This document shows positions 159 through 13,622 of a stretch of DNA of 16,374 nucleotides, piece by piece. The notes under the pieces were generated by a model. That model had not been told where the DNA came from and did no database searches. It was given only the letters and a program-made list of their open reading frames with translations. Position numbers and translations under genes: made by a program. Each line of letters starts with the position of its first letter. Positions within the stretch are counted from its first letter, which is position 1. Source of the DNA: an uncultured Bacteroidales bacterium (GTDB taxonomy: Bacteria > Bacteroidota > Bacteroidia > Bacteroidales > UBA932); the NCBI GenBank assembly GCA_934678915.1, contig CAKUSF010000040.1:1-16374 (forward strand), in the 5' to 3' direction.

Positions 159-1613
159 TCAAAATAGTCCAATATATTTGTCAAGTTCATTTAGTATTTC
201 TGACGAGGATGGCCTTGGTGCGTCAGGATTAACAAGTCTTCCGTCCGTGTCGAAAACAAGATACCGCGGAATATATCTGAACTTTATCTCCTTCAAAAAT
301 TTGGACTCAGCTGACACTATCCGGAAATTCTCGCCAATGTCACCCAGCCCATATTCTTTGACAGCCCGCTTCCACTCAGATTCATTTCTGTCTGACGAGA
401 TGTTCATGAATATGATTTCATCAGAATCCAGTCCCACTTTCAGTCGTCTTGAAGCAGGCATCTCTTTCCGACAAGGTCCGCACCAGCTTGCCCACATGTC
501 CATATAGATCACCTTTCCTCTATGTTTCTCTATAACTTCCGCCAATGACAGTCTATTTCCGGTAATATCCTGAAGAACGAGATCATACGTATAACCATCA
601 ATCGAGGAGACATTAGGCTTTTCTATTGCCGGACGCAAAAATGAACTGTCCACAGTCAAATCGTGGTATTTTTCATTGTACTCATTGACAATATTTTCCG
701 GATATGGAACCCAACCCGTGTCATTTATCCTGTCAATGTAGTGACGCATCAGAGACTCTCTCGCGGCTTTGCATAATGTCGTGTCCCGCGCCACATAATC
801 AAACCTGCCAGTATAATCAAATGAGTCATAGCCCTCATCTGGATATCCCATCAGTTTATGAAGATGGGTGATATAGCGCAATAGGCTGTCTGATTGTTTG
901 ATGCAGCCGACAGGGCACCCATCTTCAAGCAGCGTCTGCCTGTACCAACGAGAATATTCCCGTCCACGGTTTCCTGTTTGTGAAAGCGAATCCAGCTTCG
1001 CGGAAAAGCAATCGCGCCAGTTATTGTACATGTTTCCTGCAGAATCAAGATCCACATAATACTCTTTAAAAATCTTTTCCAGTCCCGGATATTTTCTTTG
1101 ACTGGCAGGATCGGTCAGGTATTTTTCTGCTGCACGAAAACGAGGATTCCTAAGAATCGACCTGAAAGAGTATCCGTTCCGATGAACCAATCCAAGGACA
1201 GACTCCGGCAGGCGATACAGTTTGGTATATTCCTCATTACTAAGGCTTCTCATCACTGGTCTAGCATTCTTGTCGTACGTAACCATCACAGAATCACCCT
1301 CCGGCAAAAGGAAAGGAATCTCCTCGCAAGCCTGATAAAGGTGGATTATCTCCGCATAGCCATGATACGTTGGAACATCCAGAGTATCAAAACCGATGCT
1401 TCTTGGGTTGAAACCCATCTCATGCCCAGCGCTGTCCACATAAGCAACGATCGACCCATGTACACTATTCAAATGGCCGATCCTTTCGGTGCTTCTCTGC
1501 TCCGGTGCATCCTTGAATATGACCGTGACCTGCCCAGGGCCTGTCCTCACGCCATCCGTTCCCACACAAGAAAGACACAAGATAATAACGAGTATAAGTA
1601 ATCTTTGCTTCAT
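159..1613 (-). CDS. TlpA-like thiol-disulfide oxidoreductase lipoprotein
   Basis: A 484-residue envelope protein. Residues 1-16 form a lipoprotein-type signal ending in Leu-Ser-Cys16, so it is probably anchored in a membrane facing the periplasm. Residues about 25-340 are a helical, Tyr- and Arg-rich region with no domain I can name. The C-terminal ~140 residues are a TlpA/ResA-type thioredoxin fold: the redox motif is WCGPC (W377, C378-C381) after a beta strand (VIYMDMWAS), and the cis-proline is in YIPRYLVFD (P449). Such proteins reduce or rearrange periplasmic disulfides. The gene follows a 45-residue small ORF by 3 bases and is followed 9 bases later by another secreted protein. It is expressed from a promoter of the same design as the peptide cassettes, so a role in handling cysteine-containing peptides or their partners is plausible but inferred. 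Confidence 0.9.
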   Translation of the reverse strand: MKQRLLILVIILCLSCVGTDGVRTGPGQVTVIFKDAPEQRSTERIGHLNSVHGSIVAYVDSAGHEMGFNPRSIGFDTLDVPTYHGYAEIIHLYQACEEIPFLLPEGDSVMVTYDKNARPVMRSLSNEEYTKLYRLPESVLGLVHRNGYSFRSILRNPRFRAAEKYLTDPASQRKYPGLEKIFKEYYVDLDSAGNMYNNWRDCFSAKLDSLSQTGNRGREYSRWYRQTLLEDGCPVGCIKQSDSLLRYITHLHKLMGYPDEGYDSFDYTGRFDYVARDTTLCKAARESLMRHYIDRINDTGWVPYPENIVNEYNEKYHDLTVDSSFLRPAIEKPNVSSIDGYTYDLVLQDITGNRLSLAEVIEKHRGKVIYMDMWASWCGPCRKEMPASRRLKVGLDSDEIIFMNISSDRNESEWKRAVKEYGLGDIGENFRIVSAESKFLKEIKFRYIPRYLVFDTDGRLVNPDAPRPSSSEILNELDKYIGLF

Positions 1614-1778: not shown

Positions 1779-1786
1779 CAAATATA
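1779..1786 (-). promoter_or_regulatory. Bacteroidetes-type -7 box for the small ORF / TlpA operon
   Basis: Read on the minus strand, this is TATATTTG, an exact match to the Bacteroidetes -7 consensus TAnnTTTG, preceded by ACGTTTT as at the other two cassette promoters. No TTTG is found at the usual -33 distance, which suggests activator dependence. The first ATG (1754) lies 25 bases downstream. Confidence 0.75.
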
Positions 1787-1829
1787 AAAACGTTTTTATT
1801 TATATTAAAGGAATATAACAAAAATTCAT

Positions 1830-2005
1830 CTTACATAAATCCTCGCCAACACAGTAGTGTAACCACCACATAATAAACATAATACATCTTATTCTAAAAC
1901 TTCATGTAAGACAATAACCTTACAAGCATGATGTCATTAGATTAAATCGACAATGGAGAGCCATAAAAAAGGATGGTTCGTCAAGGACAAGAAGGTGGTT
2001 GTAAG
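1830..2005 (-). promoter_or_regulatory. Upstream activating region of the TlpA operon (TGTAAG elements)
   Basis: Relative to the centre of the -7 box this region holds CTTACA (1830-1835) at 50 bp, TGTAA (1858-1862) at 77.5, TACATC (1883-1888) at 103, the inverted repeat TGTAAG-N8-CTTACA (1905-1924) at 132, and TGTAAG (2000-2005) at 220. The same elements recur at the same distances upstream of cassettes 1 and 3. The intervening sequence is largely different, so the elements look like binding sites of a shared activator. The TPR/HTH regulator encoded immediately upstream is the obvious candidate, by proximity only. Confidence 0.7.
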
Positions 2006-2017
2006 AAAATAAATCGG

Positions 2018-3694
2018 TTAAATCATCAACAAGTAATCATCTTTATAAGGAGAATTTAATTTTCTGATACGTTCACGCAGGCGTGATCTCTTTGTATAGA
2101 CATTCGACACGGAAAGGTTAAGCAACATTGCTATAGTCTGTGAATCCAAACCGGCAATAAGATAACAGATAAAACGCTCATCCTTTTTGCCGGCAATTCC
2201 CAAGTCCTCTTTTATATGGACAAGGATTCCATTAAGATCTTGGTTAATACGAGACTCAAATTTGTCAAATAGATTATTGTCTCCATTAATATCGGAAATT
2301 AGCTGTTCCACGTGATAATAAATAAGATCTTTCTTATCACTACGACCGTTTAAGCCCAAATAAGCCTTACAGAGTTCACCCAGTGTGGCAAATTTTCCCT
2401 TATAAACAGAAGCTAAAGATAAACGCACCTTTTTCCGTTCATCCTCACTTATATCGTATTTGGATTTCAACTCTGCATTCTCCTGCTCCAACACTCTCTT
2501 CGCCTCATCTAAAAGGTGCAGCATCTGTCTATCATTCTCACGTTCTTTCATCAGCCTAACACGATGATATAGTAATAATATCATAAACAGCAGAACAGCA
2601 AAGGAAAGACTGACAGCCGATATTATCAAGATCTTATGACTTCTGACACGATTTTCATCCGCGACAAACTGGTAATAATCCTGAAGTCCCTCAGAAACAG
2701 GAAGAGCCAAAAGGGAATTCAACACTTCAATATTATACACCTTGGCGGATTGCAAATAATCTAATGCTTTCTTATAATCACCTCTACTGTTATATATCCG
2801 ATACAGCCAAATCAAAGCATCTTTTTTATGTTTTACATCAAGATTCTCAAGCTGAACGACAATCCGGTCACAAGTGAATTGATCACCTATCATGTCTGAC
2901 GCGTATGCATAAACCCCATAATCTATTATAGACAGAGATTGGTGATACTCATGTGACAGAGACTCCAACAGAGAAATAGCGCCATGAGGATCAGGTTCCG
3001 TTTGAATCATTTTCATTTTGGCGTAATTGGCCAAAAGGTTGGATACGACCAACGTATCATGTTTCGCCTTTTCTATTCCGATACGGTATAAAGAATCAGC
3101 CTTATCCCATTCCCGCCTTCCATGATACGCACGCGCAAGATCACCATATGACAAGTTCATGCGACTCGTATCACCAGCCTCGCTGTAACAAGCCAGACCT
3201 TTTTCCGCATATTCAAGTTGTTTGTCATTGTTATGAATCCAATTGTATAGATAGCTGAAATTCATGAACAATAAGCCTTTCTGCACAAGATCTTGTGACT
3301 TTTCCGCCTCTGACTCAGCCAATGAATATTCGTATGCAGCCTTATCCAACCGACGAGCATTCAGATAAATACGTCCGAGATAGAAATGTGTCTTCAACTT
3401 TTCATCAGGACTACCGTGTCGATTGTAGTAGTCAACCGCAGGCATAATAACAGAAACATCCGTGGTGTCAATGAAGTTCCTGTCCAAAGCCATGGCATAA
3501 AGCAAGGCATACTTTGCACGCAGTTTTTTCGTATTCAGTGAACTTTGATTCATCCCGCGAAGTGTTTCCAGCGCATTTTCTGGATGCTCACAAATGCACC
3601 TCTCCACTTCTGACAAAGTAAGTTTTATTTCCTGATTGCCACAAGAAACGAACAAAAAAGATACAAAAAGAATAAAGCCTTGCAAGTACTTCAT
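2018..3694 (-). CDS. Membrane-anchored TPR / helix-turn-helix transcriptional regulator
   Basis: This is a typical Bacteroidetes architecture of 558 residues from the chosen start. It has a lipoprotein-like signal (MKYLQGFILFVSFLFVSC, lipobox FVSC at 15-18), a long array of TPR-like helix pairs (about residues 30-330), a single membrane span (about 355-375, ILIISAVSLSFAVLLFMILL), a short coiled coil (about 380-420), and a C-terminal LuxR/sigma-4-like helix-turn-helix (about 505-545, core LIAGLDSQTIAMLLNLSVSNVYTKRSRL). The layout suggests sensing outside the inner membrane and DNA binding inside. I start it at the ATG at 3694: the ATG 25 codons earlier lies inside a perfect hairpin and would bury the signal peptide. 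Its own promoter is visible. It lies between the export operon and the TlpA operon, whose promoters share operator-like repeats, so it is the likely regulator (inference). Confidence 0.88.
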   Translation of the reverse strand: MKYLQGFILFVSFLFVSCGNQEIKLTLSEVERCICEHPENALETLRGMNQSSLNTKKLRAKYALLYAMALDRNFIDTTDVSVIMPAVDYYNRHGSPDEKLKTHFYLGRIYLNARRLDKAAYEYSLAESEAEKSQDLVQKGLLFMNFSYLYNWIHNNDKQLEYAEKGLACYSEAGDTSRMNLSYGDLARAYHGRREWDKADSLYRIGIEKAKHDTLVVSNLLANYAKMKMIQTEPDPHGAISLLESLSHEYHQSLSIIDYGVYAYASDMIGDQFTCDRIVVQLENLDVKHKKDALIWLYRIYNSRGDYKKALDYLQSAKVYNIEVLNSLLALPVSEGLQDYYQFVADENRVRSHKILIISAVSLSFAVLLFMILLLYHRVRLMKERENDRQMLHLLDEAKRVLEQENAELKSKYDISEDERKKVRLSLASVYKGKFATLGELCKAYLGLNGRSDKKDLIYYHVEQLISDINGDNNLFDKFESRINQDLNGILVHIKEDLGIAGKKDERFICYLIAGLDSQTIAMLLNLSVSNVYTKRSRLRERIRKLNSPYKDDYLLMI

Positions 3695-3715
3695 AACAAC
3701 GAATATTCTATTTCG

Positions 3716-3746
3716 TAAATATAATGTGATTTGAAGTAATTTGCAA
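3716..3746 (-). promoter_or_regulatory. Promoter of the TPR/HTH regulator gene
   Basis: On the minus strand TTG (3746-3744) is separated by 20 bases from TATATTTA (3723-3716), one mismatch from the Bacteroidetes -7 consensus and with normal -33/-7 spacing. The ATG at 3694 lies 22 bases downstream. Unlike the cassette promoters, it has a -33 element and no TGTAAG repeats upstream, so the regulator is probably expressed independently of the regulon. Confidence 0.55.
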
Positions 3747-3751
3747 GATGC

Positions 3752-3773
3752 CCGGATGCCACATGGCATCCGG
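3752..3773 (-). terminator. Perfect 9-bp hairpin between the export operon and the regulator gene
   Basis: CCGGATGCC-ACAT-GGCATCCGG is a GC-rich perfect inverted repeat with a 4-base loop, 20 bases downstream of the DUF3244-like stop codon and just before the regulator promoter. Its position fits termination or 3' end stabilisation of the export operon transcript. There is no T-run after it on the minus strand, so a classical intrinsic terminator is not established. Confidence 0.45.
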
Positions 3774-3793
3774 AACTTATGCCTGTTTCACAA

Positions 3794-4174
3794 TCATAAA
3801 AGGAAATTTCCGAAATACTGTTTTCCATTTGAAAGGATAAACGTTATCGTACAATAACCCTCATCCCCTGGACAAGGAACAATCTGGGTTCCATTGGCCA
3901 GAACCGTAACATTGACACTTTCTCCTGTCATTGAATTATAAAGGTCAATCATTACCTCACCGACAGCGCTTTTAAATTTGATCAAAACGCAATTCATGCC
4001 GGAATCATAATAGCATTCCAGCGGAATTCTGGACGGTGCCCTGTGTGTTGGTCTAGACGGAACCGTGTCTGTATCCGTAATCACAATCTCGATTTGTTCA
4101 TCATCACTTGAAGCTAGTGAAAACGCAGAAATGCCACACAACAATGACAAAAAAAGAATAATTCGTTTAATCAT
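3794..4174 (-). CDS. Small secreted DUF3244-like protein
   Basis: A 126-residue protein with a Sec signal peptide (MIKRIILFLSLLCGISAFSLAS). After a short acidic and Pro-rich linker, the rest looks like a small all-beta domain with strand blocks CVLIKFKSAVGEVMIDLYN, ESVNVTVLANG, YCTITFILSNG and a final YFGNFLL. The length and the C-terminal pattern of a turn plus Tyr/Phe-Gly-x-Phe resemble the DUF3244 family of short secreted Bacteroidales proteins, whose function is not known. It is the last gene of the export operon, 37 bases after the HlyD-type gene and before a hairpin. Three cysteines (in LECYY, NCVLI, GYCTI, with a further one in VPCPGDE) would be exposed to the envelope disulfide machinery. 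The family assignment is by pattern only. Confidence 0.65.
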   Translation of the reverse strand: MIKRIILFLSLLCGISAFSLASSDDEQIEIVITDTDTVPSRPTHRAPSRIPLECYYDSGMNCVLIKFKSAVGEVMIDLYNSMTGESVNVTVLANGTQIVPCPGDEGYCTITFILSNGKQYFGNFLL

Positions 4175-4211
4175 ATAACAACTAATTTAAATGTATTATT
4201 GACTTTATAGC

Positions 4212-5522
4212 TCATCTATTCATAAACAGCGATTTAATCGGATACAGCAGCTGACCAGCGAGGCGCATGTCCTCGGTGATTATCTCAGCGGTTCCGTCCA
4301 TCTCTTGAATCATTGGGAAAGTCTTCCCGTAAGTGCTGACTAGACCTTTTGGGAATGAGACTTCGATAGTGTACGAGACTTCCCCACTAGAATCCTTTTC
4401 GGGCACGGAGGAAATGTGGCTGACAGATCCCTTCAAAATGCCAAACTCCATGTACGGGAAACCGTTCAGCCTAACATTTACCTCCTGTCCCTCAACCACC
4501 TTGCCGAATCCCATGGAAGACACCCTCATCCGTCCTTCGACCACACCTACCGCATCTGGGACAACACTCGCCACGACATCGCCAGCGTTCACGTGCTGCC
4601 CTCGACTCCAATAATCCTGCAACGACACGATACCGTCCATTGGAGCGACTATCGCATAGGTTTCAAACCAAACATCAACCTGAGCGGAGATCCTTTGGAG
4701 ACACTGGTTGATTCTGACATAGAAATCATTCTCTTCCTTAAGTCTTTGAAGTTCAATCTCATCGGCACTCTGAAACAATTGAAGCATCGTCATCTGGGCA
4801 GATTTCATGGAGGATTCAAAGCCTGTCAGGCTATTCAGTTTCGAGAGGTAGGACTGCCGTGACGATTGGAACTCATATTCAGAGATCGCCTCCTTCCTCA
4901 GCAGGATCGAATCACTGTCCATGATCCGCCTTTGGATGGAAATGTCTTCAAGCAGGATGTCCCGCTGCGCCACAAGATATTCATAGTACTCCTTGTTCTT
5001 GCTGATCCTGTCATTTGTCATCCGTGTCTGGCGACCGGCCAAGTCAAGGGATATGTAGCGTGCGTACTCGTCCGCCACCGCTGCAGCCTCCGTCCACAAT
5101 GCCTGAATGTCACCCAATTCAAGTTTACTTCTGAACATCGTGTCCGAAAGGACATCCTTTAAGGAACGATGGCTGCAATCATCAACAAAAGTCCTGACTC
5201 TCAGCACATCATCATAGCGAGCGGGTGTCGCTAACAATGCTATCAGGTCCCCTTTTCTCACCTTCCCGCCATTCGCGATGGTGACGGTGTCCAACAGGCC
5301 TGAAAATCTTGCTGCGATCCTTGATGGAGGATTGGAGGAGGTGATGACAATCGGAGACGCAATCGTCTGGGGATAGCGGATCAGGCAGCAACCAATGAAT
5401 ATGATCACGAATATCCCGAATATGACAGTGACTCCCCACCTTGTTATCCAAGACGGAATTGTCCCCATTATCTCCTGAACGGGTTCGCTATAGAAGTCTT
5501 CTATACGTTTTCTTTCAGCCAT
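4212..5522 (-). CDS. HlyD-family membrane fusion protein of the peptide exporter
   Basis: The periplasmic adaptor of a type I-like secretion system, 436 residues from the chosen start. Order: short cytoplasmic N-terminus with a conserved-looking FYSEPVQEIMG, one transmembrane helix (about 29-48), first half of a lipoyl-like domain (around ARFSGLLDTVTIANGGKVRKGDLIA), a long alpha-helical hairpin (about 120-280), the second lipoyl half (IVAPMDGIVSLQDYWSRGQHVNAGD) and a C-terminal beta-barrel (about 320-436). A longer frame from TTG at 5543 overlaps the transporter gene. I prefer the ATG at 5522 because GGAGGA lies 7 bases upstream, a rare good Shine-Dalgarno site here, at the very end of the transporter gene. 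It follows the PCAT transporter with a 4-base gap, implying coupled expression. An outer-membrane partner is not encoded nearby. Confidence 0.93.
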   Translation of the reverse strand: MAERKRIEDFYSEPVQEIMGTIPSWITRWGVTVIFGIFVIIFIGCCLIRYPQTIASPIVITSSNPPSRIAARFSGLLDTVTIANGGKVRKGDLIALLATPARYDDVLRVRTFVDDCSHRSLKDVLSDTMFRSKLELGDIQALWTEAAAVADEYARYISLDLAGRQTRMTNDRISKNKEYYEYLVAQRDILLEDISIQRRIMDSDSILLRKEAISEYEFQSSRQSYLSKLNSLTGFESSMKSAQMTMLQLFQSADEIELQRLKEENDFYVRINQCLQRISAQVDVWFETYAIVAPMDGIVSLQDYWSRGQHVNAGDVVASVVPDAVGVVEGRMRVSSMGFGKVVEGQEVNVRLNGFPYMEFGILKGSVSHISSVPEKDSSGEVSYTIEVSFPKGLVSTYGKTFPMIQEMDGTAEIITEDMRLAGQLLYPIKSLFMNR

Positions 5523-5526
5523 ACCG

Positions 5527-7722
5527 TCATCCTCCAAGCTCAAGCTGGTTCTTCACCAATTCATAATACTTTCCACGCAGGGCAGTGAGCTGCAAATGAG
5601 TCCCTTGCTCGGCTATCCTCCCCTTGTCTAGGACAATGATGTTGTCAGCATTCTTCACTGTACTCAGGCGATGTGCCACAACAACCACTGTCTTGTCCGC
5701 GAAAAGCCGATCCAGATTTTCCATGATGGTTCTCTCGTTGTTAGCATCAAGAGAGTTGGTCGCCTCATCAAAGAACAAGTACTGGGCATCCTTGTAGGCA
5801 GCCCTGGCAATCAAGATGCGCTGTTTCTGCCCTGAGCTAAGTACGTGACCGTCTGCCCCGATCTTTGTGCCGTAGCCAAGAGGCAGACCTTCTATCCAAC
5901 TTTTTATGTTTGAAATGCCCGCTGCCCACCGCACCCTGTCCATGTTAGGATATTCCTCGGACACCGCGATGTTGGCAGCGATAGTATCTGAGAATATATA
6001 GCCTTCCTGTATCACTGTCCCGCACCTTGCCCTCCACCGACTCTCACTGTAGTTCTTCAATGGCACATTTCCAAGCAGGACCTCGCCCGAAACTGGAGGA
6101 TAGAATCCAAGCATCATCTTAAGCATTGTGGTCTTTCCGCTTCCGGACGCACCGACTATAGCGGTCACCTTCCCTGACGGAATCGTCAGCGACACGTCAT
6201 CAAGAACCTTAGGAGAATGAGGCCCGTCATACTGGAACACCACGTCACGGAAAGCAATGTCGGCATCCTCTGGAATGTCTTTAATCCTTTCCTCATCCAA
6301 CGGTTCCTCGTCCTTCATTTCGTGGATTTCACCAAGGCGATCTAGCGAGATGGACGCGTCCTGAGCGGACTGGACAAAAGAGATGAACTGAGAAATCGGA
6401 GCGTTGATCTGGCCCATTATGTACTGAAGTGCCATCATCATTCCCAACGTCATCCCACCATCTATCACCGACTTGGCAGCGATGAATGACATAAGAATAT
6501 TTTTGGTCTGGTCAATGAATGTGCTACCTATCTCCTGAATCTGTCCGAGGGTAAGGCTCTTCACTCCGACCTTGAACAGCCTTGCCTGAATCGCCTCCCA
6601 TTCCCACCTTTTCTGCTTCTCACAGTTGTTCAGCTTGATCTCCTGCATTCCTCCGATGAGTTGGACAATGTTGCTTTGGTTCACGGAGGCTTGCTGGAAG
6701 CGCATATAGTCTAGTTTCCGTCTTCTCTTCATAAAAAGCAGGACCCAAAGCACGTACAAAGACGCGCCAACCAGAAAGACGATGAATATTGTCGCGTTGT
6801 AACCAGCCATGATGAAGCCATAGACAACGAAGGAAACCACCGCGATGACCATGCTGAGCAATGAGCCCGTCAGGAATGTCTGAATGCGGTTGTAGTCCCC
6901 TATTCTCTGCATTATGTCGCCCACCATCTTACTGTCAAAGAAGGCTATAGGTAGTTTCATCAGTTTGCAGAGAAAATCAGAGATCAAGGATATGCTCACC
7001 CTCGATGTGGTGTGCAGCATCAGCCAGCTACGGATTAGATTGTTCGCCAGACCGCCTAAAGTCAAAGTCAGTTGGGCTATGAGCAGCACAACAATCAAGG
7101 ACAGGCTCCCGGTGCCGATTCCCTTGTCCACAACAGACTGTGTGATGAATGGCATCAGAAGGCTTATAACACTCGCGGTGAGCATCGCCAAAAGAATCTG
7201 GACTATGTAGGAGCGGTAAGGCCTCAAGTATTTGAGCACGTAGCCGAAACCATAGTGCCTGCGTTCTTCATCACCGTCTTCTTCGTAGAATTTCGGTGTT
7301 GGTTCCATAATCAAGGCTATGCCTTCAGTCTTTTCCTCAGACTCCAGCCAGGATTTCAGGAAATCCTCTGCTCGGTACTCAAGCAGGCCGGACGCGGGAT
7401 CGGCCACCACAACTTTGTAAGACCCGCGCTTTTTCACCACATCATAGACTACGACAAAATGACGTTGGTTCCAGTGGACTATGCAAGGCAACGGCATCTC
7501 CTCGACCATCTGCCTCCAAGTCACCTTGACCCCAGTCGTGCGGAAGCCGATGGATTCGGCAGCGTCACTTATTCCCAGCAGGGACACGCCCTCCCTTGTG
7601 ATATGACATCGGTCCCTAAGGTTCTGAAGGCTGTAACTCTTGCCATAGAACCTGGCCACCATTCTAAGGCAGGTGGGGCCGCAGTCCATCGAATCGTGTT
7701 GGATATAGCTGACAAATCTCAT
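5527..7722 (-). CDS. Peptidase-containing ABC transporter (PCAT) with C39 leader peptidase
   Basis: An inner-membrane exporter that removes double-glycine leaders and pumps out the cargo. From the ATG at 7722 (731 residues; the longer frame begins with TTG 4 codons earlier): C39 peptidase domain about 1-135 with oxyanion Gln8, catalytic Cys14 (DSMDCGPTC), His88 (NQRHFVVVYD) and Asp108 (ADPASG); ABC transmembrane domain about 160-455 with roughly six helices; ATPase domain about 485-725 with Walker A GASGSGKTT (524-532), Q-loop in VIQEGYIF, signature LSSGQKQR (628-635), Walker B YLFFDEATN (648-656) and switch His684. All catalytic residues are present and the length is normal. The ATG start gives MRFVSYIQHDSMDCG, the usual beginning for this domain. 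The three GG-leader peptides encoded upstream are the obvious substrates. Confidence 0.97.
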   Translation of the reverse strand: MRFVSYIQHDSMDCGPTCLRMVARFYGKSYSLQNLRDRCHITREGVSLLGISDAAESIGFRTTGVKVTWRQMVEEMPLPCIVHWNQRHFVVVYDVVKKRGSYKVVVADPASGLLEYRAEDFLKSWLESEEKTEGIALIMEPTPKFYEEDGDEERRHYGFGYVLKYLRPYRSYIVQILLAMLTASVISLLMPFITQSVVDKGIGTGSLSLIVVLLIAQLTLTLGGLANNLIRSWLMLHTTSRVSISLISDFLCKLMKLPIAFFDSKMVGDIMQRIGDYNRIQTFLTGSLLSMVIAVVSFVVYGFIMAGYNATIFIVFLVGASLYVLWVLLFMKRRRKLDYMRFQQASVNQSNIVQLIGGMQEIKLNNCEKQKRWEWEAIQARLFKVGVKSLTLGQIQEIGSTFIDQTKNILMSFIAAKSVIDGGMTLGMMMALQYIMGQINAPISQFISFVQSAQDASISLDRLGEIHEMKDEEPLDEERIKDIPEDADIAFRDVVFQYDGPHSPKVLDDVSLTIPSGKVTAIVGASGSGKTTMLKMMLGFYPPVSGEVLLGNVPLKNYSESRWRARCGTVIQEGYIFSDTIAANIAVSEEYPNMDRVRWAAGISNIKSWIEGLPLGYGTKIGADGHVLSSGQKQRILIARAAYKDAQYLFFDEATNSLDANNERTIMENLDRLFADKTVVVVAHRLSTVKNADNIIVLDKGRIAEQGTHLQLTALRGKYYELVKNQLELGG

Positions 7723-7755
7723 TGAGTCACTCAAATATATTCTTCAAAAACGCCA

Positions 7756-9285
7756 TCAGAAAAAAAACCGCAATTCCGTATAATCGTACATTCCCGGCAG
7801 GAGTCTGCCATCTACACAGATAAAAGGTGTTTCCGTTATTCGCTTGGTCTTGGCGAAACGGCTATGCCGAAGCGCCATGCGTTCATATTCAGCATTGACT
7901 TTCCACCCTCGCGGCACTTCCATTGACGAATACCATCGATCAAGCACCGCATGCATATCACTGTCCGCCATGTTAGCATCATATTCCTCAAGGATCCAAC
8001 TTGCCGCGTTGACCCCAGACTGATCATACACCGCGAAAACAACATCTATCCGGACGTTCTCCAATGCGCTCAATTCTTTTACAAGTTCCTGACAGTGCGG
8101 GCAATATGGGTTAAGAGCCACCAAGAGCCAATGTTCATATTCACGTAATCCGTTGTTGACTGTCGGGAAGTTTAATTCTTCACGTGAAACGAGCCTGCGC
8201 TCCGAATTAAGAAGATTCATAAAGAGAGCCTGGTCGGAAAGAATGATTTCTTCTTTGCGTCTGAGTCTTTTATACGTATAACGATCCAAGGAATTGTTCC
8301 TTAGGATGGTAATCATAAACAAAACAAAGATGCAACCAAATGCGAAACACAGAATATAGCCTACATTAATGTCCAAAGGGAGGCTGGCAGCCATAAGCAG
8401 CAGCAAGAATTCCATGGCCAACAGAAAATCCACCAACAGACAATAGACACAGAACGTACGATTTTTGAGCTGAAAAAATAGCGAATAGGCGACAATAGGC
8501 AAAGTCAGGCAAGATATATAGAGGAAAGAAGGAAAGACAGTTGCGTCACGAATCGTCAAGGAAAGGATGAACTCGACAAGAAAATATGTCAAAGCCAGAT
8601 CTCCGAGAGGCACCAGTCCGAACAACTTGGAATCCTCATTGTCAGTAACAGTCCGGCATCCATGCGAACCTACAATGTCACACAATCCTTTACCGGCATC
8701 CGTCCCGAAAAATTCTTTAAATACTATGGATGAAGAAACAGCAAGACCGCAAAACAGACATAGACGTAGCAAGAACGTTGAAAGAGAGATTGTGTTAATG
8801 AATATCAGTGCTAAAAGGGACACGAACATCAAAGTTTTAAGGCCATTATCTCCCAAATCCCATATTACGTTTCTAAAATAGCATCCCACATTGCACCGCA
8901 CCTTCTTGTCTGAAGCATATCCATCTGTCTGAATAACATAGAGCGGAAGATGTGTCTCTATCTTCCTTAGAGGCACATCAGTTTTGACTTTCCCATCATA
9001 AAGCGTCAAAGTGTCCGTGCAGTGCTCGGAAACAAATCTCAGCGGATTGGGCTCGTAGGGTACAAACAAAATCTTACCATTCAAGTCCACGCTGGTGCAA
9101 TCCTCCAAAGAACAGACCTCATGGTTGACACCTATTTCGTCAAGGACGTCACTGACACACCGCATGCTGTTCTGCATAGGGTGCTTCCGATAGGCTGTCT
9201 GAATAGCGTGCTTGTCGGCAACAAATCCGTTGTCAACTGAAAATATGTGCACTACCTTTACAAACTCACTCGTGCTCATATTCAT
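7756..9285 (-). CDS. VKOR-thioredoxin fusion (disulfide bond formation), with N-terminal C39-like region
   Basis: A 509-residue membrane protein that should make disulfides in the envelope. Residues about 25-125 look like a degenerate, non-catalytic C39-peptidase-type domain (weak similarity of pattern, no Cys-His-Asp triad). Residues about 148-330 are a vitamin K epoxide reductase (VKOR/VcVKOR-like) domain of about five helices. Its loop cysteines are Cys202 and Cys210 (LCDIVGSHGC) followed by the GLVPLG motif, and its quinone-side CxxC is Cys279-Cys282 (FCVYC). The C-terminal thioredoxin-like domain carries CPHC (395-398) and a cis-proline at TP (487). Its ATG overlaps the stop of the third GLPGLI gene (ATGA), so it belongs to that operon, and the PCAT gene starts 33 bases after its end. 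Since precursors and GLPGLI proteins carry conserved cysteines, they are its likely clients (inference). Confidence 0.92.
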   Translation of the reverse strand: MNMSTSEFVKVVHIFSVDNGFVADKHAIQTAYRKHPMQNSMRCVSDVLDEIGVNHEVCSLEDCTSVDLNGKILFVPYEPNPLRFVSEHCTDTLTLYDGKVKTDVPLRKIETHLPLYVIQTDGYASDKKVRCNVGCYFRNVIWDLGDNGLKTLMFVSLLALIFINTISLSTFLLRLCLFCGLAVSSSIVFKEFFGTDAGKGLCDIVGSHGCRTVTDNEDSKLFGLVPLGDLALTYFLVEFILSLTIRDATVFPSFLYISCLTLPIVAYSLFFQLKNRTFCVYCLLVDFLLAMEFLLLLMAASLPLDINVGYILCFAFGCIFVLFMITILRNNSLDRYTYKRLRRKEEIILSDQALFMNLLNSERRLVSREELNFPTVNNGLREYEHWLLVALNPYCPHCQELVKELSALENVRIDVVFAVYDQSGVNAASWILEEYDANMADSDMHAVLDRWYSSMEVPRGWKVNAEYERMALRHSRFAKTKRITETPFICVDGRLLPGMYDYTELRFFF

Positions 9286-10238
9286 TCCCGTTCCATCGGG
9301 TAATGGGGACTTGTGTAATTCTCTGGGGTGAAGATTTTGTAGCCCAGTTCCTCTGGAATACCTTTAAGACCATTATGAGTACCAATCATGTAATCATGTT
9401 CATGCCAACTATTCATAATAGGGCAATCAAAACGTTTCTTTTCGACCGAACGGAATTTATCTCGGGGTAATTTCTTGACTGTGATAGAGGTCACCACATC
9501 TATGTCCTCCTTGGCGTTCTTGATGGACACAGCAGTAAATGAATAGTAACGCTCGCTGTCCTCGGCTTTCAGTATCAGCCCCGGAAGGCCGGAAAATTTC
9601 CAGAATCCGCAATCCACAGGGATATCCGATGTGAACCAGACGGTCCAATGGCGGCCACAATAATCCGTGTCGGCACGTTGGCACAGATAGCCGCTCACTG
9701 TCATTGTGTCAGCAGACATCGTCCAAACGAACGAAGGTTGCGATTCATCATACTGGATAGCATAATGTGGCAACATCGGCAAGGCATGGAGGTTAGATAC
9801 CATACGAGAAGCCAGATTACGATAAACGAACCAGTTTATCAGTTCATAATACCCCTCTGGTCGTCTATAGTTCTTTGATTGGTCTTCTGGCACCGTGTTG
9901 CACATCGAGCCCATCCAATAATAATGGCCGTTGCTCAACATATAGTTCTTGCCGAGCAGTGTCCTGACACGATCCATCCCCCTCTTACCCGACAGGGAGT
10001 CGAGGAGGATGTCCGCATCGTAATCAACCCGCAGATAGGAGCGGTCAAGTCTTTTTGTCTTGCTGAGATTCCAGATTGCATACTCTGGGTATGGATCACG
10101 ATAGACACCTTCGTACAAAGAGAACCTACCATCCCAATTGGTCAGAGCCTCCTCAAGTGTAAATTTACGCCACCTCTGAGCCTCCGCAAATGATGACATC
10201 ATTAACAATGTCAAAACAACAAGACAAAAGCGTTTCAT
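9282..10238 (-). CDS. GLPGLI-family secreted protein, copy 3
   Basis: A 318-residue secreted protein with a signal peptide (MKRFCLVVLTLLMMSSFAEA, cleavage before QRW). The family-defining GLPGLIL is at 217-223, preceded by the usual block of aromatic strand and Pro (HWTVWFTSDIPVDCGFWKFS) and followed by YYSFTAVSI. GLPGLI proteins are common in Bacteroidetes and have no established function. This copy lies 9 bases after precursor 3 and overlaps the VKOR-thioredoxin gene by 4 bases. Cysteines in YLCQ and VDCG are shared with copies 1 and 2, while a Cys in DYCGRH is unique to this copy. The middle section (RRPEGYYELINWFVYRN) matches copy 1 and the C-terminus (GYKIFTPENYTSPHYPMERE) matches copy 2, a mosaic pattern suggesting recombination between copies. 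Confidence 0.92.
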   Translation of the reverse strand: MKRFCLVVLTLLMMSSFAEAQRWRKFTLEEALTNWDGRFSLYEGVYRDPYPEYAIWNLSKTKRLDRSYLRVDYDADILLDSLSGKRGMDRVRTLLGKNYMLSNGHYYWMGSMCNTVPEDQSKNYRRPEGYYELINWFVYRNLASRMVSNLHALPMLPHYAIQYDESQPSFVWTMSADTMTVSGYLCQRADTDYCGRHWTVWFTSDIPVDCGFWKFSGLPGLILKAEDSERYYSFTAVSIKNAKEDIDVVTSITVKKLPRDKFRSVEKKRFDCPIMNSWHEHDYMIGTHNGLKGIPEELGYKIFTPENYTSPHYPMERE

Positions 10239-10247
10239 AGAAATCAG

Positions 10248-10460
10248 TTAATTAGCACGTGTACAGTTGACTTGGTTCGCGCCATACTTCTTGTGCATGT
10301 AGTCAGCTGCATCGACTGCAGTTGCGGCTTCTACAACTTCTGAATCTCCTTCAAGAATCACATCACACTCGGTCTGTATTACATTCCTTACAGCCAAACA
10401 AACCCAACTTTCGCCACCTCTGATCTGCGACATCTGTGACTTTGACAATACTCTTTTCAT
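10248..10460 (-). CDS. Double-glycine-leader peptide precursor 3
   Basis: A 70-residue precursor. Residues 1-16 (MKRVLSKSQMSQIRGG) form a canonical GG leader with hydrophobic residues at -12 (Leu5), -7 (Met10) and -4 (Ile13) and Gly-Gly at -2/-1, as C39 peptidases require. The predicted 54-residue product is acidic and has cysteines at 21, 32 and 66 in the pattern W-V-C, TECDVILEG, then AADYMHKKYG and QVNCT. These positions are conserved in precursors 1 and 2. The leader resembles the GG-Bacteroidales natural-product precursor type, but the mature region matches no peptide family I can name. It is the first gene of the operon that also encodes GLPGLI copy 3, the VKOR-thioredoxin protein and the exporter, and has its own activator-type promoter about 110 bases upstream. 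Function (toxin, signal, surface protein) is unknown. Confidence 0.9.
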   Translation of the reverse strand: MKRVLSKSQMSQIRGGESWVCLAVRNVIQTECDVILEGDSEVVEAATAVDAADYMHKKYGANQVNCTRAN

Positions 10461-10569
10461 GGTAATTAAAATTTGTTAATCAGTTCAACTTTATCATTTG
10501 CGTACAACCTCACCTTCTTCCGCGGCCTAAGATATCAAAAAGAAGACGGAATCGCGCAAACGACCACTG

Positions 10570-10577
10570 CAAATATA
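10570..10577 (-). promoter_or_regulatory. -7 box of the cassette 3 / export operon promoter
   Basis: TATATTTG on the minus strand, preceded by ACGTTA. There is no TTTG at -33 distance. The predicted 5' untranslated region to the precursor 3 ATG is about 100 bases and closely resembles the one in front of precursor 1. Confidence 0.75.
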
Positions 10578-10620
10578 TAACGTCCAATTGACAATTCACT
10601 CATAAACACGAGAATCACGT

Positions 10621-10797
10621 CTTACAAAGCCACCTCCTTGACATCAGTGTAAATAATCAAATATTAACACACTACATCACAACATCAAAACCTGTGTAAG
10701 ATTGGATTCTTACACTGTAAGACCAGACAAGAAGAAAGTGTCGCCTGACAACGGCCAAAGGCACTTTCACGTCAAATCCGGAAACGGATCCTGTAAG
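10621..10797 (-). promoter_or_regulatory. Upstream activating region of cassette 3 (TGTAAG elements)
   Basis: Measured from the -7 centre: CTTACA (10621-10626) at 50 bp, TGTAA (10648-10652) at 76.5, TACATC (10673-10678) at 102, palindrome GTGTAAGA-N6-TCTTACAC (10694-10715) at 131 with a further TGTAAGA directly adjoining (10716-10722), and TGTAAG (10792-10797) at 221. The arrangement matches the regions at 1830-2005 and 13448-13622. Confidence 0.75.
10734..10768 (-). terminator. Hairpin after GLPGLI copy 2, inside the upstream region of cassette 3
   Basis: GAAAGTG (10734-10740) pairs with CACTTTC (10762-10768), with partial inner pairing. On the minus strand the stem is followed by TTCTTCTT. 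It could end the cassette 1-2 transcript about 80 bases after the GLPGLI copy 2 stop. A homologous but better-formed hairpin sits at the same distance from the cassette 1 promoter, so a regulatory role is also possible. Confidence 0.4.
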
Positions 10798-10824
10798 ATA
10801 AAAATCAAACGTAATTCAGGATCC
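10786..10824. repeat. Inverted repeat GGATCCTG / CAGGATCC downstream of GLPGLI copy 2
   Basis: Two perfect 8-base arms (10786-10793 and 10817-10824) flank an A-rich 23-base spacer containing the outermost TGTAAG element. The flanking sequence CC-GTAAGAT-AAAATCAA is partly conserved near 13616-13632, in the homologous region upstream of cassette 1. Significance unknown. Confidence 0.4.
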
Positions 10825-10846
10825 AGACCTATCCGCGCGCTCATAT

Positions 10847-11806
10847 TCATTCTCGTTCCATCGGGTAATGTGGACTTGTGTAATTCTCCGGTGTAAAGAT
10901 TTTGTAGCCAAGTTCCTTTGGAATGCCTTTAAGGCCAGTATGAGAACCAATCATGTAATCATTTTCATGCCAACTATTCATAATAGGGCAATCAAAACGA
11001 CTTTTTTCCACCAAACGGAATTTATCTCGTGGTAATTTCTTGACAGTGATAGAAGTAATGACGTCTATGTCCTCCTTTACATTCTTAATGGACGCAGCAG
11101 TAAATGAATAGTAACGCTCGCTGTCCTCGGCTTTCAATATCAGCCCAGGAAGGCCGGAAAATTTCCAGAAGCCGCAATCCACCGGAATCTCCGGTGTGAA
11201 CCAGACTGTCCAGTGGCGACCACGGTAATCTGTGTCGGCACGTTGGCACAGATAGCCGCTCACTGTCATCGTGTCAGCGGACATTTTCCAGACGAACGAT
11301 GGCTGCGGCTCATCATACTGAATGGCATAGTCCAGCAGCATTGGTAAGGCATGAAGGTTTTGTACTGAACGGGATGTAAGATTACGATAAACGAACCAGT
11401 TCATCAGTGGTGTGAAACAACCTTGCGGATCACAATAATTATCTGTTTCTTCCGATGGAACTGTCTGGCGCATTGAATAAGACCAAAAGCCATGGCTATC
11501 ACTCAGCATATAGTTCTTACCGACAAGCGTTCTGACCCAGTCCATCCCCCTCTTACCCGACAAGGAGTCGAGGAGGATGTCCGCGTCATAATAGATTCGC
11601 AGATAAGAACGATCCAGCCTTTTTGTCTTGTTGAAATGCCATGGTGCATACTCCGGATACGGGTCACGATAAACACCCTCGTACAGAGAAAACCTATCAT
11701 CCAAGTTAGTCAGTGCCTCATCAAGCGTCCATGTCCGCCACCTCTGCCCATCAGCCAATAATGACATCGCGAATAATGTTACGACAAAAAGACATAAGCG
11801 CCTCAT
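10847..11806 (-). CDS. GLPGLI-family secreted protein, copy 2
   Basis: 319 residues from the ATG at 11806. A frame starting two codons earlier (11812, Met-Val-Met) is possible, but the paralogues begin at the Met-Arg/Lys-Arg equivalent. Signal peptide MRRLCLFVVTLFAMSLLADG, then QRWRTWTLDEAL. GLPGLIL lies at about 218-224, with the same flanking blocks as the other copies (RHWTVWFTPEIPVDCGFWKFS before, YYSFTAASI after). The internal section around residues 105-145 (SHGFWSYSMRQTVP...CDPQGCFTPLMN) is different from copies 1 and 3, so this is the divergent member there, while its C-terminus is nearly identical to copy 3. It pairs with precursor 2 and is followed by a hairpin. Function unknown for the family. 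Confidence 0.92.
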   Translation of the reverse strand: MRRLCLFVVTLFAMSLLADGQRWRTWTLDEALTNLDDRFSLYEGVYRDPYPEYAPWHFNKTKRLDRSYLRIYYDADILLDSLSGKRGMDWVRTLVGKNYMLSDSHGFWSYSMRQTVPSEETDNYCDPQGCFTPLMNWFVYRNLTSRSVQNLHALPMLLDYAIQYDEPQPSFVWKMSADTMTVSGYLCQRADTDYRGRHWTVWFTPEIPVDCGFWKFSGLPGLILKAEDSERYYSFTAASIKNVKEDIDVITSITVKKLPRDKFRLVEKSRFDCPIMNSWHENDYMIGSHTGLKGIPKELGYKIFTPENYTSPHYPMERE

Positions 11807-11819
11807 AACCATAGATCTT

Positions 11820-12035
11820 TTAAGCCTTGGTACAATTCACTTGGCTTACTCCGTATTTATCATGCATATAGTCAGCAGCAACCACAGCCGTCTCTGCCAT
11901 AACAATCTCCGTTGGCCCTTCGAGAATTACATCGCATTCTGTCTCGGTTTTGCTCTGAACAGCCTTACACAGCCATGCCGTTGGTGCTCCGCCCTTTATC
12001 AAGGACATCTGAGATTTTGATAATACATTTTTCAT
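11820..12035 (-). CDS. Double-glycine-leader peptide precursor 2
   Basis: A 71-residue precursor. The leader is MKNVLSKSQMSLIKGG (residues 1-16), with Leu/Met/Ile at -12/-7/-4. The predicted 55-residue product begins APTAWLCKAVQ, has cysteines at 23, 34 and 68, and keeps the family blocks TECDVILEG, AADYMHDKYG and QVNCTKA. It is the only precursor without its own promoter: the 71-base gap to GLPGLI copy 1 retains only the last part of the conserved 5' untranslated region, so it must be co-transcribed with cassette 1. It differs from precursors 1 and 3 mainly just after the leader and in the middle acidic stretch. Confidence 0.9.
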   Translation of the reverse strand: MKNVLSKSQMSLIKGGAPTAWLCKAVQSKTETECDVILEGPTEIVMAETAVVAADYMHDKYGVSQVNCTKA

Positions 12036-12106
12036 GTGTAATTAAAATTTGTTAATTTAGTTCAACTTTATCATTTGCGTACAACCACATCTTCTTCCGC
12101 TCATAT
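12036..12106 (-). other. Short cassette 1-2 junction lacking a promoter
   Basis: The 71 bases keep the leader sequence found upstream of precursors 1 and 3 (the stretch reading AAATGATAAAGTTGAAC on the minus strand), then jump at a CCGC directly into the GLPGLI 3' end (TCATATTCATTC on the plus strand). About 325 bases of promoter and activating region present at the cassette 2-3 junction are missing here. Confidence 0.7.
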
Positions 12107-13066
12107 TCATTCCCGTTCCATCGGGTAATGAAGAGAGGTGTAGTTTTCAGGGGTAAATACAGTATGATATAACGACTCATCAATGCCTTTCATGCCAAGA
12201 TGGGTTCCAATCATGTAACCGTTCTTATGCCAACTATTTTGAATTGGGTTATCAAAGCGGTTCTTCTCCATCAAACGAAATTTGTCTCGGGGTAATTTCT
12301 TGACAGTGATTGATGTAATCACGTCTATGTCCTCCTTGACGTTTTTTATGGACACAGCAGTGAATGAATAGTAATGCTCACTATCCTCGGCTTTCAGTAT
12401 CAGGCCAGGAAGGCCGGAAAATTTCCAGAAGCCGCAATCCACCGGAATCTCCGGTGTGAACCAAACTGTCCAGTGGCGGCCACGGTAATCTGTGTCGGCA
12501 CGTTGGCACAAATAGCCGCTTACTGTCATCGTGTCAACAGACATTTTCCAGACGAACGTTGGCTGCGGCTCATCATACTGGATGGCATAGTCTGACTGCA
12601 TTGGTAAGGCATGAAGATTCAGCACTGTACGAGAAGTTAAATTACGATAAACAAACCAGTTTATCAGTTCATAATACCCCTCTGGCCGCCTATAGTTCTG
12701 TGATTGGCCTTCCAACACTGTGTTGCACATCGAGCCCAACCAATAACAATGACCGTTGCTCAACATATAGTTTTTACCGAGAAGTGTCCTGACACGATCC
12801 ATCCCCCTCTTTCCCGACAAGGAGTCGAGGAGGATGTCCGCGTCATAATCCACCCGCAGATAGGAGCGGTCTAGTCTTTTTGTCTTGCTGAAATGCCATC
12901 GTCCATAAGTCGGATAAGGATCGCGATAAACACCTTTGTACAAAGAGAACATCGTACCTCCTTTATAAGCAAGAGCCTCATCAAGTGTCCACTCTCGCCA
13001 TGTCTGAGCTGACATCTCAAAAACCGATGCCAACAATGCCACAAGAACAAGACAAAAGCGTTTCAT
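12107..13066 (-). CDS. GLPGLI-family secreted protein, copy 1
   Basis: 319 residues with signal peptide MKRFCLVLVALLASVFEMSA (cleavage before QTW). GLPGLIL is at 218-224 within the conserved RHWTVWFTPEIPVDCGFWKFS block. Most of the protein is very close to copies 2 and 3, but the C-terminal segment (FDNPIQNSW, then GIDESLYHTVFTPENYTSLHYPMERE) is distinct and replaces the FDCPIMN cysteine with Asn. Its central part (RRPEGYYELINWFVYRN) matches copy 3. It begins 9 bases after precursor 1, the same spacing as in cassette 3. The strict one-to-one pairing with a precursor suggests a dedicated partner role, for example surface display, maturation or self-protection, none of which the sequence decides. 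Confidence 0.92.
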   Translation of the reverse strand: MKRFCLVLVALLASVFEMSAQTWREWTLDEALAYKGGTMFSLYKGVYRDPYPTYGRWHFSKTKRLDRSYLRVDYDADILLDSLSGKRGMDRVRTLLGKNYMLSNGHCYWLGSMCNTVLEGQSQNYRRPEGYYELINWFVYRNLTSRTVLNLHALPMQSDYAIQYDEPQPTFVWKMSVDTMTVSGYLCQRADTDYRGRHWTVWFTPEIPVDCGFWKFSGLPGLILKAEDSEHYYSFTAVSIKNVKEDIDVITSITVKKLPRDKFRLMEKNRFDNPIQNSWHKNGYMIGTHLGMKGIDESLYHTVFTPENYTSLHYPMERE

Positions 13067-13075
13067 AAGTTGTAT

Positions 13076-13285
13076 TTAGAGACTAGTACAATTGATTTGG
13101 TTTGCTCCGTACTTCTCGTGAAGCATATCCGCAGCTTCTATCGCGGACGATGCCTCTATATCCACTTCTGGGCCTTCTAATATAATGTCACACTCTGTTT
13201 CTGTGATTTTGGTAACAACTTTGCAATGCCACCATGCTCCGCCTCTGATCTGCGACATCTGTGACTTTGATAATACATTTTTCAT
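13076..13285 (-). CDS. Double-glycine-leader peptide precursor 1
   Basis: A 69-residue precursor. Leader MKNVLSKSQMSQIRGG (1-16) is near-identical to the other two. The predicted 53-residue product starts AWWHCKVV, has cysteines at 21, 32 and 66, and the blocks TECDIILEG, EAADMLHEKYG and QINCTSL. It is the most divergent of the three cores, with conservative exchanges in the shared blocks (Val/Ile, Tyr-Met/Met-Leu), a pattern typical of a folded domain under constraint. It is the first gene of the cassette 1-2 transcript, about 110 bases downstream of a TATATTTG promoter with the full set of TGTAAG elements. Confidence 0.9.
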   Translation of the reverse strand: MKNVLSKSQMSQIRGGAWWHCKVVTKITETECDIILEGPEVDIEASSAIEAADMLHEKYGANQINCTSL

Positions 13286-13394
13286 TGTAATTAATATTAG
13301 TTAATCAGTTCAACTTTATCATTTGCTTGTTCCCTCATCCTCTTCCGCGGTTTAAGATATCAAGATTACGACTGAATCATTCAAATGATAATCG

Positions 13395-13402
13395 CAAATA
13401 TA
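13395..13402 (-). promoter_or_regulatory. -7 box of the cassette 1 promoter
   Basis: TATATTTG on the minus strand within ACGTTTTATATTTGC, the same core as at 1779. No -33 TTTG at the normal spacing. The precursor 1 ATG lies about 110 bases downstream after an untranslated leader shared with precursor 3. Confidence 0.75.
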
Positions 13403-13447
13403 AAACGTTTAATTGATAATTCACGCATAATACTTAAAAAATTGTGT

Positions 13448-13622
13448 CTTACAAATCTGTCTTACGAATCTCACGGTAAATAATTAAGTATAAGCACGCT
13501 ACATCATAGCGTCCAAAACAGTGTAAGATTAAATTCTTACACTGTAATCTTCAACAAGTAAAAAATGCCATCTGACAAAGGTCAGTGGCATTTCATGTCG
13601 AACTCACAATAGATTCCGTAAG
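13448..13622 (-). promoter_or_regulatory. Upstream activating region of cassette 1 (TGTAAG elements)
   Basis: From the -7 centre: CTTACA (13448-13453) at 52 bp with a second CTTAC at 13461-13465, GGTAA (13475-13479) at 78.5, TACATC (13500-13505) at 104, palindrome GTGTAAGA-N6-TCTTACAC (13521-13542, arms extendable to 10 bases) at 133 followed by TGTAA, and CGTAAG (13617-13622) at 221. Confidence 0.75.
13560..13593 (-). terminator. Strong hairpin with T-run upstream of cassette 1
   Basis: AAATGCCA (13563-13570) pairs with TGGCATTT (13586-13593) and CTGAC with GTCAG, giving 13 pairs with one bulged T and an AAAG loop. On the minus strand it is followed by six T (13565-13560), so it can work as an intrinsic terminator for transcripts coming from the S4-protein operon. 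It sits about 180 bases upstream of the -7 box, the same distance as its homologue near 10750. Confidence 0.55.

Follow-up and report, generated by a model that had tools for sequence, protein, structure and literature searches.

We analysed a contig of 16,374 nucleotides from an uncultured gut Bacteroidales bacterium (CAKUSF010000040.1; this whole stretch is called the window below), in which three promoters, P1, P2 and P3, carry arrays of TGTAAG-type elements at fixed distances from their −7 boxes. The array and its geometry, its conservation beside the gene of one regulator, and the co-variation of its half-site with the recognition helix of that regulator are read directly from the DNA. 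On this evidence, the arrays are very likely the binding sites of the activator encoded at 2018..3694, which combines a tetratricopeptide repeat (TPR) domain, a probable membrane helix and a helix-turn-helix (HTH) domain, and whose predicted targets in the window are the peptide cassettes, the exporter operon and the TlpA operon. A first-pass annotation of this DNA had proposed such a regulon and named this regulator; both proposals gain support from the layout found 3′ of regulator homologues in other species and from a half-site that tracks the recognition helix.

Geometry of the arrays in the window

All three arrays lie on the minus strand, and offsets are given in the order P1/P2/P3 from the first base of the −7 box TATATTTG. 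The box of P1 (1779..1786) stands before the TlpA-like gene, that of P2 (10570..10577) before the genes for peptide 1, the exporter and the regulator, and that of P3 (13395..13402) before the peptide 3 and peptide 2 cassettes. Upstream of each box is a proximal half-site TGTAAG (1830..1835, 10621..10626 and 13448..13453; TGTAA starts at −49/−49/−51), whose centre is 47 bp from the box in P1 and P2 and 49 bp in P3. It is followed by a central dyad TGTAAG-N8-CTTACA (1905..1924, 10695..10714 and 13522..13541; TGTAA starts at −138/−137/−139), with arms that reach 11 bp in P3, and by a distal half-site that reads CTTACA in P1 (2000..2005) and P2 (10792..10797) and CTTACG, with one mismatch, in P3 (13617..13622; CTTAC starts at −219/−220/−220). 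Two further elements lie between the proximal half-site and the dyad, GATGTA (1883..1888, 10673..10678 and 13500..13505; −102/−101/−103) and TTACA (1858..1862 at −76 and 10648..10652 at −75), the latter being TTACC in P3 (13475..13479, about −77). One extra half-site copy occurs in P2 and one in P3 (−144, −63). The element offsets agree within 2 bp, as the first-pass annotation had claimed for an array common to 1779, 10570 and 13395. Its element set stands in part: the distal, dyad and proximal elements hold, but TACATC and (T/G)GTAA, which are the two intervening elements read on the other strand, are present in the window and only weakly conserved in relatives. Among 28 TGTAAG promoters they correspond to a degenerate TA only, at 24–25 bases from where the right dyad arm begins, and we therefore do not count them as firm parts of the array. 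Many of these 28 promoters also have an A/T-rich stretch, often like GATTATCA, about 34–36 bases from the same arm start.

The dyad TGTAAG-N8-CTTACA occurs three times in the window, each time in an array (1905, 10695, 13522), and 12 of the 17 TGTAAG/CTTACA hexamers are inside the arrays, with 5 outside. A fourth TATATTTG, at 7732, has no array elements nearby. The four GTAAG/CTTAC elements of P1 all recur, within 2 bp, in P2 and P3; when P1 was shuffled 20,000 times and compared with P2, one element was common in 449 cases, two in 4 and three in none. The earlier statement that the promoters lack a normal −33 element was confirmed: between −34 and the box, TTG is absent in P1 and P3 and occurs in P2 at −17 and −10 only. 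The usual layout, with a 19–21 bp spacer, would place TTG at −22 to −24, and a TTG starts there in 4 of 28 array promoters.

Conservation of the layout and the half-site code

A protein search with the regulator returned 202 proteins with identities of up to 97% (best 120 of the 202 listed; P0001–P0031 at 87–97%), and a scan of genome contigs gave 78 loci with regulators of 45% identity or less, labelled Bacteroidales, Bacteroidia, Prevotellaceae or Rikenellaceae, except L069, which is labelled Lachnospiraceae. The 1.32 Mb of these loci contain 22 exact TGTAAG-N-CTTACA dyads when spacers of 0–24 are allowed, and the spacer is 8, 9 or 10 in 19 of them. Sixteen of these 19 begin within 200 bp 3′ of the regulator stop codon; the remaining three are one dyad after a regulator remnant in L034 and two in L042 (9522 and 14923), which are distant from the regulator and have no proximal copy. 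When the half-site was left free, 13 of 88 regulators, that of the window among them, had the full exact distal, dyad and proximal array 3′ of the gene, where shuffling predicts 0.04, and TGTCAG, TGAAAG, TGAGAG and TGATAG were found in the same layout. The general half-site is thus TGNNAG, of which TGTAAG is one case. The regulator set was enlarged to 206 distinct proteins, 195 or 198 of them with sufficient downstream DNA and some of them close relatives (e.g. L031/L032/L133, L008/L009 and L055/L060). An array score of 5 or 6 was reached by 28 of 195 (0.8 expected by shuffling), and a TGNNAG array score of 4 or more by 38 of 198 (0 in ten shuffles). A motif search of the kind that the first-pass annotation had proposed for related genomes finds the layout kept 3′ of regulator homologues, in 13/88 in exact form and in 38/198 as TGNNAG. 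A separate box-anchored search for exact 7-mer repeats was positive for 21 of the 38 regulators with a called array and for 32 of the 160 without one, with about 9/198 expected by shuffling. Reversed downstream sequence was unusable as a null (20/195 at 5 or more, against 28 for the real sequence), because the array is nearly symmetric and reversed sequences score alike; we relied on shuffles, offset shifts and permutations.

The geometry was compared in 40 promoters, namely the 38 with TGNNAG arrays plus P2 and P3. The distance from the proximal half-site centre to TAnnTTT is 46–49 bp in 28 and 36–38 bp in 7, which together make 35/40 and form two spacing classes about one helical turn apart. 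The distance from dyad centre to proximal centre, in the 39 promoters with an exact proximal copy, is 57 bp in 2, 66–70 bp in 26, 78 bp in 8 and 81–82 bp in 3, all of the latter being the window's. The fixed spacing that the annotation expected in related genomes is kept between proximal half-site and −7 box, in two classes; between dyad and proximal site it falls into clusters from 57 to 82 bp.

The half-site changes together with one residue of the regulator, here called x, which follows Tyr/His in the recognition helix ('NVYx') and is the T of NVYT in the window's protein. Among the 38 arrays, TGTAAG goes with Thr (14) or Ala (6), TGAAAG with Ile (5), Leu (2) or Val (2), TGTCAG with Ser (2) or Lys (1), TGTTAG with Glu (1) or Met (1), TGATAG with Asn (1) or Val (1), TGAGAG with Val (1) and TGACAG with Gln (1). 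Column x ranks first of the 147 alignment columns covering the C-terminal 150 residues, with an adjusted mutual information with the half-site of 0.65 (next column 0.40), and again first of 109 columns in an enlarged set of 76 (0.56, next 0.27). A rule made from the 38 was then applied to the other 160 regulators, with the site taken as TGNNAG centred 36–38 or 46–48 bp from TAnnTTT(G/A). Such a site is present in 39/160, and 30 of the 39 obey the rule, a number reached in 0 of 10,000 permutations (mean 11.4, standard deviation 2.7). At the true offsets a site is found in 71 of 198 loci, the 39 held-out ones and 32 of the 38 training loci. Grouped by identity to the closest training regulator, the fit is 5/5 at 70% or more, 10/12 at 50–70%, 2/6 at 40–50% and 13/16 under 40%. 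In the pooled set of 76, from which the ambiguous locus L312 was excluded, Thr goes with TGTAAG in 25/25, Met and Glu with TGTTAG in 7/7 and 3/3, and Ile and Leu with TGAAAG in 9/9 and 2/2, while Ala is divided between TGTAAG (7) and TGTTAG (2).

Kinship was handled by a test on disjoint pairs of regulators with at least 35% identity outside the helix. Of the 24 pairs with unlike half-sites, 21 also have a different x, and of the 26 pairs with a common half-site, 24 share x. Leave-one-out prediction succeeds for 55/76 from residue x and for 46/76 from the nearest relative outside the helix. Part of the co-variation could be ancestry despite the pair test, but the data suggest that one regulator residue largely predicts which half-site is used. 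One locus holds both kinds of site: in L034:4780-8150 an intact regulator with a TGAAAG array is followed, about 1.6 kb on, by a regulator remnant (NVYTKRSR) with a TGTAAG array, so each helix type precedes the matching half-site type.

Contrary results and rival explanations

Nine genomes that we picked from the loci were scanned for TGTAAG-N8..10-CTTACA, which gave 11 dyads in 8 of the 9. Eight of the 11 adjoin the regulator and another falls within a reading frame; the remaining two belong to G007, where one is about 1.2 kb from a regulator fragment. In the same family, 299 genomes were scanned with a longer pattern, whose 17 matches represent 16 distinct dyads and are spread over 12 genomes. 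Twelve of the 16 are directly after a regulator or remnant (L187 judged from a reading frame at the contig start); of the other four, L195 is inside a reading frame, and L190, L199 and L196 are ahead of lipoprotein-type genes with no regulator directly upstream, showing that arrays away from the regulator, like P2 and P3, occur elsewhere. The L085 and L195 dyads, inside open reading frames, were counted as chance, as were 107 stretches from a pattern scan of viral contigs. L190 and L199 are the two G007 arrays; they are 7.7 kb apart and precede different lipoprotein-type genes with nearly identical upstream halves, as if promoter modules had been copied.

Several results weigh against the assignment of the arrays to this regulator, or limit it. 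The dyad pattern by itself is not rare, since a reversed-pattern control gave 6 dyads (3 genomes) against 11 in the nine genomes and 9 matches against 17 in the 299. The full TGNNAG array is found in 38 of 198 regulators only, any recognised TGNNAG site in 77, and none in 121 by these rules. The P2/P3 arrangement was seen in this window only, the DNA compared being that beside regulators no closer than 46% identity. Helical phasing of the dyad–proximal steps is suggestive only: the concentration of the distances is 0.74 at 10.5 bp and 0.79 at 11.5 bp, with no 10.5 bp peak, and no phasing is seen (0.08) for the distal copy, which lies at 65–118 bp in the 31 of 40 promoters where it was found when one mismatch was allowed. 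For the code, the third base alone puts column x second (0.422 against 0.429), and eight shifted offsets still gave 1, 6, 3, 1, 3, 14, 6 and 5 of the 198 loci. The rule misses 9 of the 39 held-out sites (Val 5, Ala 2, Ser 1, Asn 1) and fits only 2 of 6 held-out regulators that are 40–50% identical to a training one, and Val is spread across five half-site types in the pooled 76. Val and Ala are the weak points of the rule.

The chance rate of the dyad would also suit arrays that belong to another factor, such as a global regulator or nucleoid protein, and that lie beside the TPR-HTH gene by accident. The half-site, however, shifts with the recognition helix of the adjacent regulator even in close relatives, as in L039 (Ser, TGTCAG) compared with L033, L040 and L054 (Ala, TGTAAG), which are 69–72% identical outside the helix. 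This is not expected of a global factor, and we regard such an origin as improbable. Still less probable, in our view, is that the dyad is an RNA hairpin, a terminator or attenuator of the upstream gene, and the single copies chance or repeats. It is true that the dyad follows the regulator stop codon in many relatives and that RNA of the P3 dyad folds stably (−17.6 kcal/mol, z −4.7), but the P1 and P2 dyads fold about like shuffles (z −1.2 and −0.8), an Rfam search of the window gave no match, the single copies hold a fixed distance to the −7 box, and the half-site co-varies with the HTH.

Duplication within the locus, which would leave the likeness of the three promoters without regulatory meaning, is already largely contradicted, and we give it the least credence. 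It does describe one pair: P2 and P3 are 71% identical overall and 65% outside the elements, and each stands ahead of a homologous peptide gene. P1, with the elements masked, is 43% identical to P2 and 42% to P3, no closer than shuffled DNA, for which 30 pairs aligned over their whole length gave 47 ± 4%. The array is also present in species with regulators of 45% identity or less. These identities, taken with the shared elements, indicate a duplicated pair in P2 and P3 and, in P1, a case of the layout that is independent or very old, in agreement with the earlier claim that recent duplication alone cannot explain P1.

Proposed regulation, related systems and gene content

The regulator (2018..3694, minus strand, 558 amino acids) has a Cys after an N-terminal hydrophobic stretch, a TPR domain, one probable membrane helix, for which a hydrophobic stretch near residues 355–375 is the candidate by eye, and a C-terminal HTH with the recognition helix SNVYTKRSRLRERIR. 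S17 and C18 are nearly invariant in one alignment (A2) and a Cys near residue 18–19 is invariant in another (A3; window 3640–3694), so the sensor may be lipid-anchored besides membrane-spanning. The TPR domain is predicted to be a periplasmic sensor and the HTH to be cytoplasmic. An AlphaFold model (predicted local distance difference test score, pLDDT, 83.5) places the HTH helices at 518–524 and 529–544, the latter being the recognition helix. For a C-terminal model (pLDDT 82.7) the best Foldseek matches are FixJ, a LuxR-domain protein and sigma factors, all weak, with E values of 0.2 or more.

Binding, activation, operon extents, autoregulation, an oligomer and a ligand are what we infer from these patterns. 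Each array would be a multi-copy site for the membrane-spanning regulator, acting as a distant SusR-like one-component activator. Its recognition helix is proposed to read the half-site TGTAAG, with Thr corresponding to the central TA. On the proximal half-site, whose centre is 47 bp from the −7 box on its upstream side (near −58 relative to the start, if the box is at −7), one subunit would stand at a constant distance from RNA polymerase. Further subunits would occupy the central dyad, some 5–8 helical turns further upstream, and the distal copy, and the DNA would probably wrap or loop on a membrane-tethered oligomer. In this way the regulator would activate promoters that have no −33 element. 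The predicted targets are P3 (peptide 3, GLPGLI, peptide 2, GLPGLI), P1 (TlpA-like) and P2 (peptide 1, GLPGLI, membrane protein, C39 exporter, HlyD, DUF3244-like, regulator). If P2 is the promoter of this operon, in which the regulator gene is last, positive autoregulation would follow. A possible promoter of the regulator itself, TATATTTA with TTG 20 bp upstream (3716–3746, minus strand), is arranged close to the usual Bacteroidetes −33/−7 layout, and could supply basal expression beside P2.

PMC3878776 describes SusR-like regulators (SusR BT3705, SusR2 BT3091) as membrane proteins whose sensor is periplasmic and whose putative HTH is near the C-terminus, a plan that the window regulator may share, and predicts for them tandem direct repeats on one face of the DNA at a distance of 67 or 77 bp. 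The same paper, of 2013, calls these membrane regulators poorly studied, with sites that are predicted only, and links three of the five in B. thetaiotaomicron to susC/D. Of 29 usable SusR-family loci, 14 have box-anchored (TAnnTTTG) direct 9-mer repeats at 66–68 or 76–78 bp on the 3′ side of the gene, where shuffles gave 0.9; inverted 9-mer pairs were found in 0/29 (1.3 in shuffles) and a dyad-array score of 4 or more in 0/29. The window class differs in its TGNNAG half-site, in its inverted copies (central dyad and distal copy), in its proximal–dyad spacing of 57, 66–70, 78 or 81–82 bp, which is similar to the SusR distances but has a dyad as the upstream site, and in its targets, which are peptide, exporter and redox-type genes rather than susC/susD or glycan genes. 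The window regulator scores 20.5 bits to the SusR family NF058541 (cut-off 480), and its best NCBIfam match, the BT3442 family NF053779, gives 62.8 bits over residues 1–543 (cut-off 940). These scores are far below the cut-offs, and the regulator is therefore SusR-like in its working and not a family member. The array is a variant of SusR-like sites, new in its inverted copies and its specificity code, and among the titles listed by searches of an open-licence library on the SusR recognition helix or on TGTAAG in Bacteroides and its relatives none describes such an array.

In a Foldseek comparison of the full-length AlphaFold model with solved structures, Rap proteins are best, LGN is eighth and NprR thirteenth (E about 5e-6 to 2e-4 for Rap/NprR). 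Rap and NprR belong to the RRNPP group of TPR receptors of exported peptides, which are cytoplasmic. The likeness includes the TPR fold and the position of the window regulator next to peptide genes and an exporter; in contrast, its TPR domain is predicted to be periplasmic and its HTH is at the C-terminus. As LGN ranks above NprR, the likeness to Rap and NprR may be generic to TPR proteins. Two published Bacteroidales clusters of ribosomally synthesized and post-translationally modified peptides (RiPPs) or double-glycine (GG) peptides contain TPR genes (PMC10352776), and both these clusters and the bacteroidetocins (PMC6671954) combine GG-motif peptides with a C39 ABC exporter, as in the window; the main text of PMC10352776 does not mention GLPGLI or DUF3244, both of which the window has.

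A wider and rather doubtful proposal is that these proteins form a large Bacteroidales class of membrane-spanning TPR activators with a near one-residue code, in which residue x selects the middle bases of TGNNAG, on rigid, part-palindromic arrays, and that in the window the periplasmic TPR domain senses exported GG-leader peptides or their products. The resulting self-inducing loop would be a Gram-negative parallel to the peptide-pheromone TPR receptors. The sequences of dozens of family members reveal the site, the promoter geometry and a candidate specificity residue, so that the regulons of such regulators would become predictable from raw genomes and a clean swap experiment would be possible. 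A dedicated, perhaps self-reinforcing regulator tied to GG-leader peptides and their exporter would also open a way to study how gut Bacteroidales secrete peptides or signal with them.

Every gene of interest in the window is on the minus strand. P1 sits just 3′ of the regulator gene and ahead of the gene for the TlpA-like protein (159..1613; PF08534, PF13905). The series after P2, in which neighbours overlap or are spaced by at most about 100 bp, comprises GG-leader peptide 1 (10248..10460), GLPGLI family protein 1 (9282..10238; TIGR01200, 107.7 bits, cut-off 50), a membrane protein that is perhaps VKOR/thioredoxin-like (7756..9285, named by inspection, the family search giving no match), the peptidase C39 ABC exporter (5527..7734; PF03412, PF00664, PF00005), an HlyD-type adaptor (4212..5543; PF13437), a small secreted-type DUF3244-like protein (3794..4174) and, last, the regulator. 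The DUF3244-like protein was assigned through homologues: tblastn matches were found in 34 loci (some counted twice), and the L019 homologue exceeds the PF11589 cut-off. After P3 come GG-leader peptide 3 (13076..13285; TIGR04149, 19.3 bits, below the cut-off of 25), GLPGLI-type protein 3 (12107..13066), GG-leader peptide 2 (11820..12035, with no array of its own) and GLPGLI-type protein 2 (10847..11812), both GLPGLI-type translations resembling that of 9282–10238. The three cassettes of GG-leader peptide and GLPGLI gene span 9282–13285, with three Cys retained in every peptide. A protein search with peptide 3 found just five homologues, none carrying a family name, and a plasmid search with the exporter gave a best identity below 60% among the matches listed. 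The end of a GH31-like gene is seen by eye at the window edge, separated by other genes.

Two other loci resemble this gene content. A distant relative, L041:9947-13960, has a regulator, a DUF3244-like stretch, a GG peptide, a GLPGLI gene and a C39 exporter represented by its first part only, apparently the same gene set in decay; as it has no clear array and its neighbours look broken, it is uninformative on P2/P3. L023:3361-14956 has a regulator with a TGTCAG array followed by a DUF3244-like gene, a radical-SAM-like gene (by eye), a GG peptide and a C39 exporter that is 65% identical to that of the window, which is a further link between this regulator class and peptide export.

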